Positions 46,279 to 51,972 of a DNA stretch of 64,000 bases are shown piece after piece. The position numbers and the translations under genes are program-made. A model generated the notes under the pieces. It searched no databases. It was given only the letters and a program-made list of their open reading frames with translations, and had not been told where the DNA came from. Within the stretch, counting starts at the first letter, position 1. Every line of letters starts with the position of its first letter. Source of the stretch: Candidatus Eiseniibacteriota bacterium (GTDB lineage Bacteria; Eisenbacteria; RBG-16-71-46; JACRLI01); assembly GCA_025351485.1 (NCBI GenBank), contig JANXVU010000164.1:1-64000 (forward strand), read 5' to 3'.

Positions 46279-47069
46279 CTACCGCTTTACGTTCCGCGCG
46301 ATCGCCAGTCCCGCCAGGCCCAGCGCCATGAAGCCAAGGGTGCGCGGCTCGGGCACCGGGCCCGCCGTGCCTTCGAGGGAAAAAGCCCCGTTGAACGGGC
46401 CCTGGTGGGTGATGTCCGTGCCCACCCGCAGCCAGTCCGGGGAAAGCGCTTCGTTGCGGATCCAGGTCTGCAGGTCGGGAACGAACGGCGTACCGTCCGC
46501 GCCGATCGGCTTGGGCGCCGACAGCCAGTAGAATTCGCCGTTCTGGGTGTCCACTTCGACCTGCGGCACAAAGAAGTAGTGGTCTGAGTCCAGATCGAGC
46601 GGGGCGCTGAACGTGAGGTCGAATTCCACCTCGGTGCCGCGCATGGCCCCCTCGCCGCCCGTGAACTGGTTCGGGATGGGGTTGATTCCGTTCAGCACGC
46701 TGTTGTTCGTGGTGAAGAGCGAGGCCAGGGTCTTGGTCGAGAAAGTCATGTTCGCGTCTGCGGACTGGCGAGAGGCAAAGACCACGTCCGAGGGCGAGTT
46801 CACTCGGGTCGGCACGTTTCCCGTGGGCGGGTTGTTCGAGTCCCCGGGGAACACCCGGTAGATCTCGACTCCCACGTTGAGGATGTCGGAGACGGTCGCG
46901 TTTCCGGAGAGAATCCCGGTGAAGGTCGCGTGCTGGATGCTGGTGGAACTCGTCAGGACGAAGTCGTCCGCGGCTTCGATCTCCATCTTACCGTTGGAGC
47001 CGGCCCGGTCACGCAGATCAGAGCCAACCCCGCGATGAGGGTCGGGATGGTTCGGCTGGAGCGGAACAC
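46279..47069 (-). pseudogene. PEP-CTERM sorting domain protein, probable frameshift between signal peptide and mature region
   Basis: 46279..46986(-) ends in PVPEPRTLGFMALGLAGLAIARNVKR; signal peptide VFRSSRTIPTLIAGLALICVTGPA with SD AGGAGGG starts at 47069(-) in another frame. Confidence 0.65.
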
Positions 47070-47254
47070 GGGAGCCCTCCTGGGTGCGGATGGATGTGGC
47101 CGATCGCCGTGCCCGTCCGCAGTCGCCCCGGTGGCGGCCGCTTGGGTGGCAGTGGACTCAGGAATGCTTTGTGAATTATACGCCCGCGGATCGCCCTGTC
47201 AACGCGCGGGGCAAGGCGCCAAAAATTTCCTGCCCATCCGTTCACTTTTTTCTT

Positions 47255-47280
47255 GCCTACTGCACGCCTGTGCAGTAGGC
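47255..47280. promoter_or_regulatory. 26-bp perfect inverted repeat containing putative LexA box TGCACGCCTGTGCA (47261..47274)
   Basis: GCCTACTGCA-CGCCTG-TGCAGTAGGC; core matches the Fibrobacter LexA box TGCNCN4GTGCA; about 100 bp upstream of lexA. Confidence 0.75.
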
Positions 47281-47377: not shown

Positions 47378-48007
47378 ATGCTCACAGATCGGGAAAAGGA
47401 AATCCTGGGTCTCATCACCCGGCTTACGGAAGAGCGCGGTTTTCCGCCCACCCTGCGTGAAATCGGAGAGGCCGCGGGGATCAGTTCCACCAACGGCGTC
47501 CGCTACTTCCTGGACCGGCTGGAGGCCAAGGGACGGATCCGGCGGGGCGACGGGCTTTCTCGGGCGATCGAGCTCATCGATGGGCCGGCGCGGCCATCGG
47601 CCACCATCCGGCTGCCCGAGCCCGTGGCCGTGCCCCTGATCGGGCGGGTCGCGGCGGGTTACCCGGTGCTCTCGGATGAAAACATCGAAGAGCACATCAT
47701 GGTGGATCCGAGCCTGGCCACCCCGGGGCGCACATTCGCCCTGCGGGTGCGCGGTGAAAGCATGAAAGACGCCGGCATCCTCGAGGGCGACATGGTGGTG
47801 GTGCGGGAGCAGAAAGAGGCCCGCTCGGGAGAGATCGTGGTGGCCATCGTCAACGGCGAAGCCACGGTCAAGACCTACCGGGTCAAGCGCAACGGCTCCG
47901 TGATCCTGGAGCCGGCCAACCCGGACTTCGAGCCCATCGAGATTTCCGAAGAGGCGCCGCTGGAAATCCGGGGCAAGGTGATTGCGGTGCTGCGAAAGGT
48001 GGGGTGA
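47378..48007 (+). CDS. lexA: LexA repressor
   Basis: N-terminal HTH (PPTLREIGEAAGISSTNGVRYFLDRLEAKG), cleavage AAG (GRVAAGYPVLSDENIEE), Ser RGESMKDAGI, Lys ATVKTYR. Confidence 0.96.
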   Translation: MLTDREKEILGLITRLTEERGFPPTLREIGEAAGISSTNGVRYFLDRLEAKGRIRRGDGLSRAIELIDGPARPSATIRLPEPVAVPLIGRVAAGYPVLSDENIEEHIMVDPSLATPGRTFALRVRGESMKDAGILEGDMVVVREQKEARSGEIVVAIVNGEATVKTYRVKRNGSVILEPANPDFEPIEISEEAPLEIRGKVIAVLRKVG

Positions 48008-48372
48008 TGAGCCAGTCCGAACATGACCAGCGAGTGGATTACGTGGAGTTTCCGGCCACGGACATCCCTGCCACCAAGCGCTTCTACAACGCCGTGTTCG
48101 GCTGGAAGTTCGACGACTATGGCCCCGATTACATCGGCTTTCACGACGGGCGCCTGGGGGGCGGGTTCTACAAGGCGCCGCATGCCGGCCCGGGCGGGGC
48201 GCTGGTGGTGATCTACGCCGCAGACATGGAGGCGACCCAGGCGCGCGTGGTTCAGGCGGGCGGCAAGATCCTGCGCCCGACGTTTGATTTTCCAGGCGGC
48301 CGCAGGTTTCATTTTTCAGACCCGAGCGGAAACGAGCTCTCTGTCTGGTCGGAGCAGGTCGGTCACAGTTAG
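48007..48372 (+). CDS. VOC/glyoxalase family protein
   Basis: VDYVEFPATDIPATKRFYNAVFGWKFDDYGPDYIGFHDG ... RRFHFSDPSGNELSVWSE; overlaps lexA stop. Confidence 0.9.
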   Translation: MSQSEHDQRVDYVEFPATDIPATKRFYNAVFGWKFDDYGPDYIGFHDGRLGGGFYKAPHAGPGGALVVIYAADMEATQARVVQAGGKILRPTFDFPGGRRFHFSDPSGNELSVWSEQVGHS

Positions 48373-48458: not shown

Positions 48459-48472
48459 TGCACATATGTGCA
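48459..48472. promoter_or_regulatory. putative LexA box TGCACATATGTGCA
   Basis: perfect 14-bp palindrome matching TGCNCN4GTGCA, ending 12 nt before the ATG at 48485. Confidence 0.75.
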
Positions 48473-48484
48473 AGGAGTTCCAAT

Positions 48485-48841
48485 ATGTCCGCTCCTATGA
48501 GTCATGAGATCGCCACCGAAGCCGGCAGCCGATCCCTGGGACCGATCCCCCTGGATCGACTGCACCTGGTCGCCCTCGAGCCGGTGGGACACAAGCCGGT
48601 GCTGAGCGGCGACGTGGCCGCGGAACTCACCCGCGCGTTCATGGAAATCGCCGCGCACTCCGGGTACCGGGTCATGTCGGTCTCCATCCTTCCGGATCAC
48701 GTGAACCTGGTCGTGGAGCTCGGCGGGCTGCACCGCGCGGAATCGGTCACGCGCGAGCTGCGCGGGCTTTCCAGCCTGCGCCTGATGCAGAGCTTTCCCT
48801 CGCTCCGTCTCAAGCTGCGCGCCAACCACCTCTGGATCTAG
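48485..48841 (+). CDS. truncated IS200/IS605 TnpA-like (Y1 HUH-derived) domain protein, likely non-catalytic
   Basis: DRLHLVALEPVGHKPVLSGDVAAELTRAFMEIAAHSGYRVMSVSILPDHVNLVVEL...LRGLSSLRLMQSFPSLRLKLRANHLWI*; HUH is HVN; ends before the Tyr helix. Confidence 0.7.
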   Translation: MSAPMSHEIATEAGSRSLGPIPLDRLHLVALEPVGHKPVLSGDVAAELTRAFMEIAAHSGYRVMSVSILPDHVNLVVELGGLHRAESVTRELRGLSSLRLMQSFPSLRLKLRANHLWI

Positions 48842-48894
48842 CCCGCCCGCGCGCGGCACTCGAAACATCCAATGGAAATGGGCGGGAGACGGAG

Positions 48895-49149
48895 ATGATC
48901 CAGGCTGTCCACGAGCCCATCGAAGTCATCACGGTTTTCTCCGAAGGCCATGCCCGGCCGCTGCGCTTCAAGTGGCGCAAGCGCGTGGTCAAGGTCGCCA
49001 AGGTGACCGGCGAATGGGTTCGCAACGAAGGAGATTCGCGGGTCCACTACTACTCGGTGCTCGGTGAAACCTCGGACTACTTCGAGATCGCCTACGACGC
49101 CCGCAAGGTGCTGTGGACCCTGATGAAAGTCTGGCTGGATGGAGCGTGA
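48895..49149 (+). CDS. DUF6504-like small protein
   Basis: EPIEVITVFSEGHARPLRFKWRKRVVKVAKVTGEWVRNEGDSRVHYYSVLGETSDYFEIAYDARKVLWTLMKVWLDGA; adjacent to a Y-family polymerase. Confidence 0.6.
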   Translation: MIQAVHEPIEVITVFSEGHARPLRFKWRKRVVKVAKVTGEWVRNEGDSRVHYYSVLGETSDYFEIAYDARKVLWTLMKVWLDGA

Positions 49150-49303
49150 GGATGGGATCGAGGGGAGCCACGGCGGAAGTCCCGCCGCCTTATTTCACAC
49201 CTCACGTTTCCGTCTGAGCCAGTTTCGGGATTGAAGCCCCGGCGCGGACCGCTTCTGCGCCACGCGCCACCTCCCGCGCCGGGGCCAACTCGTGGGGAGG
49301 ATC

Positions 49304-50587
49304 ATGGGGTTCTCGCCCTCCCGGGGAGAGGCGCGCCATGGGAAGGAGCCGGGCGCGACCCGGATCATATTCCACGTGGACATGGACGCATTCTTCGCCT
49401 CGGTGGAGCAATTGTTCAACCCGCACCTGCGCGGGAAACCGGTGCTGGTATGCGGCGATCCGGACGGACGCAGCGTGGTGGCGACCGCCTCGTACGAGGC
49501 GCGCCCCTACGGCATCCGCTGCGGCATGCCGGTGCGGGAGGCGCGGCGCCTGTGCCCCCACGCCACGTGCGTGGAAGGAGATCCGGGCAAGTACATCCAC
49601 ATCTCGCTGCAGGTGTTGGACCTGCTCAAGACGTTCAGCCCTTCGGTGGAGCCGTTTAGCATCGACGAGGCGTTCGTGGAAGTCACCGAACAGATCGAGA
49701 AGCGCAGCGAGATGCTGAATCTGGCCAATCGGATCCAGCGCCGGGTGCGGGCCACCGTGGGGGTGACCGCTTCCATCGGGATCGGACCCAACAAGTTCGT
49801 GGCCAAGATGGCCTCCGGGGTGCACAAGCCCGAGGGCATGACCTGCTTTTCCACCGCGGACTTCGTCCGGCACTTTGGGCCGCAGCCGGTCGGGGAACTG
49901 TGGGGGATTGGAAAAGCCACCTCCGAAATCCTGGGATCCCTGGGGCTTCGAACGGTGAATCAACTGGCTGCGGCGCCCCGGGAACTTCTGGCGGGAACCT
50001 TCGGTATCGTAGGACCGGGGCTTAAGCTGGTCGCCCAGGGGTTGGACGAGACCCCGGTGGTTCCGTATCACCAGGCGCCGGATGCCAAGTCCATCGGGCA
50101 CGAACACACGCTGGAACAGGACGAGTCCGATCCCGAGATCCTCGCCGGGCACATGCTGCGCCTCAGCGACATGGTCGCGCGGCGGGCGCGGCTGGACAGC
50201 TTCGCCGGCAAGGTGATCTCGCTCAAGCTCCGGAGCTCGGATTTCCAGACCTTCCAGGCACAGCAGGGGCTGGGGCATCCCACCAGCGATGGCCTGGAGA
50301 TCTACCGGGTGGCCCGGAGCCTGTTCGAGCGACTTAAAGATGGCCCCGCGGGAGATTTCCACCGGGGCCGTGTGCAAAAGAGGAAAACTGCCGCTGGACC
50401 GATTCGGGCGTTCCGGCTTCTTGGGATATCCCTGGGGGGACTGGTCCGCCTCGCGCCCGATCCGCAGCGGCTCTTATTTCCGGAAGAGCAGCGCTATCGC
50501 GATATGATGTCCGCAGTGGACCGCCTTCGCGGACGCCTAGGCGAGGGGATCCTCGTGCGGGCCGGCACCATGATTCTCGAACACTGA
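49304..50587 (+). CDS. dinB: Y-family DNA polymerase (DinB/Pol IV type)
   Basis: IIFHVDMDAFFASVEQ, VVATASYEARPYGIRCGMP, EPFSIDEAFVEVT, SIGIGPNKFVAKMAS; SD GGGGAGG upstream of ATG 49304. Confidence 0.93.
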   Translation: MGFSPSRGEARHGKEPGATRIIFHVDMDAFFASVEQLFNPHLRGKPVLVCGDPDGRSVVATASYEARPYGIRCGMPVREARRLCPHATCVEGDPGKYIHISLQVLDLLKTFSPSVEPFSIDEAFVEVTEQIEKRSEMLNLANRIQRRVRATVGVTASIGIGPNKFVAKMASGVHKPEGMTCFSTADFVRHFGPQPVGELWGIGKATSEILGSLGLRTVNQLAAAPRELLAGTFGIVGPGLKLVAQGLDETPVVPYHQAPDAKSIGHEHTLEQDESDPEILAGHMLRLSDMVARRARLDSFAGKVISLKLRSSDFQTFQAQQGLGHPTSDGLEIYRVARSLFERLKDGPAGDFHRGRVQKRKTAAGPIRAFRLLGISLGGLVRLAPDPQRLLFPEEQRYRDMMSAVDRLRGRLGEGILVRAGTMILEH

Positions 50588-50616: not shown

Positions 50617-51105
50617 ATGGCCAGTAAGTTCCGACCCGGCGCCGTGGGCGCCATGATGGACGAATACGAGCGCGCCGCAGCGGAGCTCAAGGACCTGGTC
50701 CACGGCCTGACCGACGAGCAGTACGCGGCGCTCGCCGACCCCGACACCAAGGACGAGGATTGCCGAACCATCCAGACCATCATGCGCCACGTGGTGGGGG
50801 CGGGTTACGGCTACGCCAACTACCTGCGGGGCCACTTCGGGGATCCCCAGGTGACGCACGACAACGTGCTCGCTTCCCGTGAAGACTGCCTGCGGCGCTT
50901 CGACGAGATGATGGCCTTCACCGTGCGCACCCTTGAAAACCGCTGGCAGCTCCCGGACAAGGAAATCGACGGCGCCCAGATCCACGTTCGCTGGGGTCCC
51001 GTGTTCAATATCGAGCAGCTCATGGAGCACGCCATCGTCCACCTGCTCCGGCACCGCCGCCAGATCGAAAAGCTGCTGCTGCGCATGAGCGGGGAACCCG
51101 TCTAA
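50617..51105 (+). CDS. DinB/YfiT-like four-helix metalloenzyme family protein
   Basis: TIMRHVVGAGYGYANYLRG ... FNIEQLMEHAIVHLLRHRRQIEKLL. Confidence 0.75.
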   Translation: MASKFRPGAVGAMMDEYERAAAELKDLVHGLTDEQYAALADPDTKDEDCRTIQTIMRHVVGAGYGYANYLRGHFGDPQVTHDNVLASREDCLRRFDEMMAFTVRTLENRWQLPDKEIDGAQIHVRWGPVFNIEQLMEHAIVHLLRHRRQIEKLLLRMSGEPV

Positions 51106-51183: not shown

Positions 51184-51972
51184 ATGGGCGAAATTCTAGT
51201 TGGAACATCGGGCTACTCGTTTCCGGACTGGATCGGGCCCTTCTATCCCCCCGAACTCCCGCGGGCGGACCACCTGGCGTTCTACGCCCGCCACTTCAAA
51301 GTGGTCGAGGTGAACACCAGCTATTACCGGATTCCAGCCCCCGGGACCCTGGCCCGAATGGCCAGCCGAACTCCCCCGGACTTCAGGTTCATCCTCAAGC
51401 TGCATATGGACATGACTCACAAGGAATCCCGGGAGCCGGCCCTGTACCGGGAGTTCCAGGAAGCCCTCGAGCCCCTCCGGGAGTCCGGCAAGTTCCATGG
51501 CCTGCTGGCCCAGTTTCCGTGGGCATTCCGGGTGAGCCGGGACTCGGTCCGGCACCTTGCATTCCTCAGGGCTTCCTTTCCCGGAGATTCGCTCCACGTG
51601 GAGTTCCGGCGGGCCGAGTGGAACCGGCCCGATTGCTTCGACTTCTTGGAAGGGCGCGGAATCGGCTATTGTTGTGTGGATGAGCCCTCCCTGCCGGGGC
51701 TGATGCCGCCGCACACGGCCGTGACCACCCCGGTCGGGTACGCGCGGTTTCACGGTCGGAATTCCACCAACTGGTGGGGGCGTGGAGAAGGCGACCGCTA
51801 CGACTACAACTACAGCCGGAAGGAATTGAGCGAGTGGCTGGAAAAATTGAAGTCCATGGCCGAAAAGGCGCGAACGACCTATGTGTTCTTCAACAACTGC
51901 CACGCCGGGCATGCGGCGGCCAACGCCATGCTCATGAAGGAACTGCTGGCCCGGGAAGGGCTTCCATTTTGA
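51184..51972 (+). CDS. DUF72 family (YecE-like) protein
   Basis: ILVGTSGYSFPDWIGPFYPPELPRADHLAFYARHFKVVEVNTSYYRIP ... TYVFFNNCHAGHAAANAMLMKELL. Confidence 0.92.
   Translation: MGEILVGTSGYSFPDWIGPFYPPELPRADHLAFYARHFKVVEVNTSYYRIPAPGTLARMASRTPPDFRFILKLHMDMTHKESREPALYREFQEALEPLRESGKFHGLLAQFPWAFRVSRDSVRHLAFLRASFPGDSLHVEFRRAEWNRPDCFDFLEGRGIGYCCVDEPSLPGLMPPHTAVTTPVGYARFHGRNSTNWWGRGEGDRYDYNYSRKELSEWLEKLKSMAEKARTTYVFFNNCHAGHAAANAMLMKELLAREGLPF

Follow-up and report, generated by a model that had tools for sequence, protein, structure and literature searches.

Gene content of the cassette

The window, by which we mean the entire 64,000-nucleotide stretch that we analyzed, is from Candidatus Eisenbacteria, an uncultured lineage that is found in soil and groundwater. 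On the + strand, it contains lexA with its own predicted LexA box (at 47261), a glyoxalase-like gene, another predicted LexA box (at 48459), a gene related to IS200/IS605 transposases, a DUF6504 gene, and dinB, in that order. We refer to the transposase-like (Y1_Tnp-like) gene at 48485..48841 as tnpL. All of our evidence is from sequences, and much of it is from draft metagenome-assembled genomes; the window's family is represented by just one genome.

LexA, the SOS repressor (47378..48007, + strand; 209 amino acids), has the Pfam domains LexA_DNA_bind and Peptidase_S24 and matches the NCBIfam equivalog model for lexA above its cut-off (8e-60). Its predicted box, TGCACGCCTGTGCA (47261..47274), is the core of a perfect palindrome, GCCTACTGCAC-GCCT-GTGCAGTAGGC, at 47255-47280. 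Also 5' of lexA is a weaker LexA-box-like site, TGCCCATCCGTTCA (47231..47244, + strand), with one mismatch to TACTGCMCN4GTKCA. An earlier note on this DNA, which had proposed an SOS cassette, did not include lexA or its box, so the SOS setting is stronger than was claimed. The glyoxalase-like gene (48007..48372, + strand; Pfam Glyoxalase, 1e-13) has a start that overlaps the stop of lexA. In relatives, we did not see such a gene at this place. In the window, 477 nt separate the end of lexA from the start of tnpL.

The predicted LexA box of tnpL, TGCACATATGTGCA, is at 48459..48472. As the note had stated, it is a perfect palindrome, with 12 nt between it and the start codon (ATG, 48485). The tnpL gene (48485..48841, + strand) encodes a protein of 118 amino acids, not 119, and it does have the transposase-type domain that was reported (Pfam Y1_Tnp, 1.3e-9), which makes it similar to TnpA of IS200/IS605 elements. 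The next two genes, on the same strand, were also correctly described. The first (48895..49149) encodes 84 amino acids, matches Pfam DUF6504 (4.5e-6), and appears to be a standalone ImuB-C-like domain. The second, dinB (49304..50587), encodes a Y-family polymerase of 427 amino acids from the ATG at 49304, or 431 from the GTG at 49292, with the Pfam domains IMS (1.8e-48) and IMS_C (5e-22). The dinB product contains the catalytic DxD and SIDEAF motifs and matches NCBIfam's models for DNA polymerase IV. The 154-nt gap between the DUF6504 gene and dinB contains a weak terminator-like hairpin (49171..49187, + strand; 4 such hairpins were found in the region and 2.7 were expected). Because of this gap and this hairpin, dinB is only a putative member of the tnpL-DUF6504 transcript in the window. 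There was no PADLOC match to a defence system at this locus and no Rfam match to a structured RNA in the cassette.

LexA-type boxes

TGCACATATGTGCA is the sole match in the window even if two mismatches are allowed (0.06 expected). Across the 3.44-Mb genome, TGCACN4GTGCA occurs exactly 4 times, with one site each at lexA and tnpL and two within coding frames. The control pattern, which is reversed, does not occur at all. As regulatory sites, the two boxes within coding frames (on contigs C46 and C77) were set aside as chance matches. A looser form, TACTGCMCN4GTKCA, is found in the same genome as TACTGCCCATATGTTCA upstream of recA and as TACTGCCCATATGTGCA at the start of dnaE2.

The LexA box of Fibrobacter succinogenes is TGCNCN4GTGCA. 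The sites at lexA, tnpL, and dnaE2 in the window's genome fit this pattern, while the recA site departs from it by one base.

Boxes are also found in the related genomes. A box lies 5' of lexA in all 19 of the sister-family genomes that carry tnpL, and in 18 of the 19 another box lies roughly 23 nt ahead of tnpL (consensus TGCACATNNGTKCA), equivalent in place to the box in the window. In those 18 genomes and in the window, the box before tnpL has at most one mismatch to TGCACN4GTGCA. The chance of this is 0.003 per region, or about 0.06 expected among the 20 regions (19 sister and the window). Membership of the cassette in the SOS regulon is well supported by sequence, and we infer that LexA binds these boxes and that the genes are induced by damage. 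For Candidatus Eisenbacteria, this would yield both a LexA box and an SOS regulon as predictions; our literature search found no SOS study of this group. A box of the TGCACN4GTGCA type was not found at loci L178-L188, from families f3-f7 and f10 of the phylum. Since the lexA-DUF6504-PolY order is kept there (PolY being the Y-family polymerase), LexA probably has a different specificity in these families.

Distribution of tnpL

We searched the proteins of 47 genomes from the phylum and found tnpL in the window's genome and in 19 of 20 genomes from a sister family in the same order, with one match each. There was no match in the remaining families among these 47 genomes. Beyond the phylum, a profile scan with two conserved peptides returned only Candidatus Eisenbacteria, which does not prove absence elsewhere. 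Y1_Tnp domains are also rare within these genomes: tnpL is the only match in the window's genome, and each sister genome has one match at lexA, with another match elsewhere in 2 of them.

A lack of conserved gene order or box in relatives, which the earlier note gave as grounds for refutation, is not what we found. In all 19 tnpL-bearing sister genomes, tnpL is directly 3' of lexA, with boxes as described above, and DUF6504 next to a Y-family polymerase is kept across the phylum, often after lexA or a box. Most of the gaps between lexA and tnpL in the sister family contain a terminator-like hairpin with a run of T, then the box, and then a strong ribosome-binding site. In 17 of 18 sister-family loci, a convergent gene lies 3' of tnpL, so tnpL probably forms a transcript of its own in this family. 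Because this convergent gene is conserved as well, a low rate of rearrangement could explain part of the synteny.

In the sister family, then, tnpL is a separate neighbor of lexA, set off by a box of its own and by what seems to be the terminator of lexA, and it is not in the polymerase operon. The earlier note had viewed the transposase-derived protein as a co-regulated accessory factor that binds single-stranded DNA for translesion synthesis. Because tnpL lies outside the polymerase operon in the sister family, a role in translesion synthesis is not established. The proposed binding of single-stranded DNA comes from fold and homology, and the window's copy is truncated.

One sister-family copy, L059 (G036:C83, 5570-6289, - strand), diverges out of frame after PELRA. 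No box can be recognized in front of it, though lexA in this genome has kept its own. This copy may have been lost naturally or misassembled.

The TnpL protein

The tnpL profile matches TnpA of ISDra2 from Deinococcus (hmmsearch, 2e-20). The AlphaFold2 model of a relative (pLDDT 83.5) matches structures of ISDra2 TnpA (Foldseek, 1.4e-10). Also, the tnpL relative that we compared to NCBIfam exceeds the cut-off for IS200 transposases (72 versus 55) and falls below that for RAYTs (39 versus 80). RAYTs, or TnpA-REP proteins, are likewise single-copy, host-kept relatives of Y1 transposases, but they retain the tyrosine, which TnpL does not. We rejected RAYT/REP identity because, with NCBIfam's REP_Tyr_transpos model, the window's protein reached 19 bits and the relative's 39 bits, as compared to the cut-off of 80.

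Although TnpL resembles the TnpA proteins of ISDra2 and IS608 in sequence and fold, its active site is altered. Both HUH histidines (H72 and H74) are invariant across the 18 intact sister proteins, which have the HxH form of the motif. At the position of ISDra2's Tyr132, however, 17 of these proteins have arginine and one has lysine, while all 14 of the IS200/IS605 TnpAs that we compared have the catalytic tyrosine. The metal-binding glutamine has been lost as well: its position is variable, and just after it comes an invariant histidine (H142; 18/18). According to Quentin et al. (PMC6006769), the HuH and Y motifs are common to every sequence of the superfamily that they classified. Also unlike IS200/IS605 transposases, tnpL is single-copy, lacks tnpB, and keeps a constant place by lexA behind a LexA-type box. 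Given the single copy and the missing tyrosine, we rejected an active insertion sequence. A tyrosine mutant of ISDra2 TnpA (Y132F) has been crystallized with DNA (PDB 2xo6). For the closest pair of tnpL genes, dN/dS is 0.085; the remaining pairs are too diverged to weigh.

We also noticed that TnpL from the sister family (for instance, L060:7497-7955) has a conserved C-terminal end, [LW]A-x-A-S, after a variable linker. Its conservation suggests a partner-binding or degradation tail. This motif is not in the window's copy.

The window's TnpL is more degenerate than the sister proteins, and it might instead be a decaying or independently captured IS200 remnant, with a box by chance. It is short (118 amino acids), it has HVN in place of the HUH pair, and it stops right after an invariant tryptophan, so that the last strand and the helix that would bear the tyrosine (alpha-D) are missing. 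It is as similar to some IS200 TnpAs (37-42% identity) as to the sister TnpLs (28-35%), or more so; its branch is very long (3.61), and a tree that nests it among TnpAs from insertion sequences is rejected barely, if at all (p-AU 0.05-0.12). On the other hand, the tree places it with the sister TnpLs (support 91/92), its position after lexA is shared with the sister family, and its perfect box is at a similar distance from the gene. It has a strong coding signature (GC3 of 0.85, as compared to 0.79-0.88 for its neighbors), and the genome has no further Y1_Tnp match. We therefore consider a remnant to be unlikely, albeit a serious alternative. Given its position, box, and coding signature, we favor orthology to the sister tnpL, which is moderately supported.

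TnpL might still cut DNA. It could be an active nuclease without the tyrosine: the HxH motif and the invariant histidine would bind a metal, water or another residue would attack, and the enzyme would trim or nick hairpins or forks during the SOS response. The invariance of H72, H74, and H142 fits this idea, and so does the strictly basic residue at the tyrosine position, a pattern that resembles remodelling more than decay. Furthermore, class 3 TnpAs have a metal-binding glutamine at Tyr+5 (PMC6006769), which is the position of H142. But we did not find a precedent for cutting without the tyrosine by a Y1-type HUH enzyme, and the window's copy lacks one of the HUH histidines and the entire last helix. 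We find it doubtful that TnpL is a nuclease, and a protein that binds DNA without forming the tyrosine-DNA link seems a better fit.

DUF6504 and the polymerases

Using an improved profile, we found DUF6504 in 41 of the 47 genomes from the phylum. A Y-family polymerase is 3' on the same strand at 43 of the 55 DUF6504 sites, and another 5 sites are cut by the ends of contigs or loci. LexA is encoded directly 5' at 18 of the 55 sites, and a box is upstream at 42. Outside the order that contains tnpL, the usual arrangement is lexA-DUF6504-PolY, often followed by dnaE2. In one genome (G001), DinB and DUF6504 are fused in a single protein of 488 amino acids. Another such pair is present in the window's genome, with DUF6504 at 17-262 and the polymerase at 270-1463 of contig C164; next comes dnaE2, which has a box of its own. 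At three loci (L166, L167, and L172), DUF6504 and a polymerase of a second type are separated by 996-1074 nt, which leaves room for an extra gene.

In sequence, DUF6504 resembles the published ImuB-C domain. When we aligned the DUF6504 profile with the C-termini of five ImuB proteins, hhalign gave 69% probability (E = 4.4e-5), as compared to 0.5% for tnpL as a control. Pfam's DUF6504 model also hits the C-terminus of ImuB from Agrobacterium, but with a score below the cut-off (E = 0.027). The structural model of DUF6504 is all-beta (pLDDT 92), and a Foldseek search with it gave nothing below E = 0.27. A tblastn search for DUF6504 in plasmids found none, and no paper that names DUF6504 turned up in our literature search. 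The resemblance would tie an unnamed domain to a polymerase partner.

This resemblance would make lexA-DUF6504-PolY(-dnaE2) a known kind of cassette. Operons of the form lexA-imuB-C-polY are in the literature, as is this context of the ImuB-C domain (Aravind et al. 2013, PMC3765255; Timinskas and Venclovas 2019, PMC6511836); the Geobacter operon, which Timinskas and Venclovas cite, is induced by damage. From the conserved gene order, the phylum-wide state looks like lexA-ImuB-C-PolY(-DnaE2). Like the locus in Geobacter sulfurreducens, the window has a standalone ImuB-C-like gene and a Y-family polymerase near lexA. It differs in having a transposase-derived gene, with its own box, between lexA and the ImuB-C-like gene, and the box in Eisenbacteria is TGCACN4GTGCA. 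In the parts of these two papers that we consulted, no TnpA-like member is mentioned. So, while the earlier note knew of no described system like this one, its lexA-DUF6504-PolY part appears to be known already, and tnpL is the new element.

The cassette also shares features with the imuA-imuB-dnaE2 mutasome, namely a Y-family protein predicted to be SOS-regulated, a putative ImuB-C domain, and DnaE2, which would act together. However, no imuA was seen at the Eisenbacteria loci, the ImuB-C-like domain is standalone, the polymerase retains its catalytic residues, and dnaE2, with its own box, is on another contig in the window's genome.

Could this be an ordinary lexA-imuB-C-polY cassette next to an incidental gene, so that only the host phylum is new? 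The published operons are consistent with this, as is the presence of the same order across families of Eisenbacteria. Yet throughout the order tnpL has been conserved along with a LexA-type box of its own, and its active site has been remodelled in a consistent way; incidental genes do not show this. We think that an incidental tnpL is improbable.

A proposed role for TnpL

Our preferred explanation, which we consider to be probable, is a lexA-centered SOS cassette in which a tyrosine-less TnpL binds single-stranded DNA or hairpins and assists damage tolerance or repair. Gene order, boxes, conservation, fold, and the loss of the tyrosine can be read from the sequences; DNA binding and a role at forks are by analogy, from fold and homology. 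LexA would bind TGCACN4GTGCA at lexA and tnpL and the near-matches at recA and dnaE2. Upon DNA damage, LexA would cleave itself, which would release lexA, tnpL-DUF6504, and probably dinB. DUF6504 would act as a standalone partner, of the ImuB-C type, for the Y-family polymerase. TnpL would be a single-copy and vertically kept descendant of an IS200/IS605 TnpA. It most likely no longer transposes, because the nucleophilic tyrosine is gone, there is no element, and there is just one copy. Y1 transposases need single-stranded DNA, favor replication forks, and are tied to the sliding clamp (PMC6006769). Without forming a tyrosine-DNA link, TnpL could plausibly still bind hairpins or single-stranded DNA at gaps or where forks have stalled, and there it would help or direct tolerance and repair.

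The arrangement varies: tnpL lies between lexA and DUF6504-dinB in the window, while in the sister family lexA-tnpL and box-DUF6504-PolY lie separately. Which way these changes went is something that we infer.

More specifically, and more tentatively, we suggest that a bacterial order domesticated an IS200/IS605 transposase as a dedicated, LexA-controlled SOS factor for single-stranded DNA or hairpins, with the tyrosine replaced by a basic residue and the histidines kept. The sequences do suggest that the enzyme of a jumping gene was recruited into the DNA damage response. If so, a single-strand transposase, which finds hairpins in the single-stranded DNA of forks, became a host factor under LexA control. 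A transposase would then clearly have been domesticated for the SOS response, as a new kind of component for the response to DNA damage, and a tyrosine-less HUH protein would have a function that can be tested.

A role for TnpL as a regulator or modulator of LexA, by binding LexA, RecA filaments, or operators, would explain why tnpL stays by lexA rather than by the polymerases (in 18 sister genomes it is an immediate neighbor with its own box and is never with the polymerase operon), but we think this is quite improbable, as adjacency to lexA is also typical of other SOS cassettes, we did not identify an interaction motif, and the TnpA fold points to nucleic acid.

Other features near the cassette

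Divergent from lexA is a perfect sigma-70 promoter, TTGACA-N16-TATAAT (47175-47202, - strand; 12/12 positions match). It points to an open reading frame at 46279-46986, and the weak box at 47231-47244 is just behind it. The C-terminus of this reading frame, VPEPRTLGFMALGLAGLAIARN, resembles a PEP-CTERM sorting signal.

Two genes lie 3' of dinB on the same strand. The first (50617-51105) belongs to the DinB family in the sense of DinB_2, the metal-hydrolase type, and is not a polymerase. The second (51184-51972) encodes a DUF72 protein. A Desulfosarcina plasmid (L190) has the gene order lexA-DUF72-PolY-dnaE2, so, with DUF72 near dinB in the window as well, DUF72 may be a recurrent neighbor of SOS genes.
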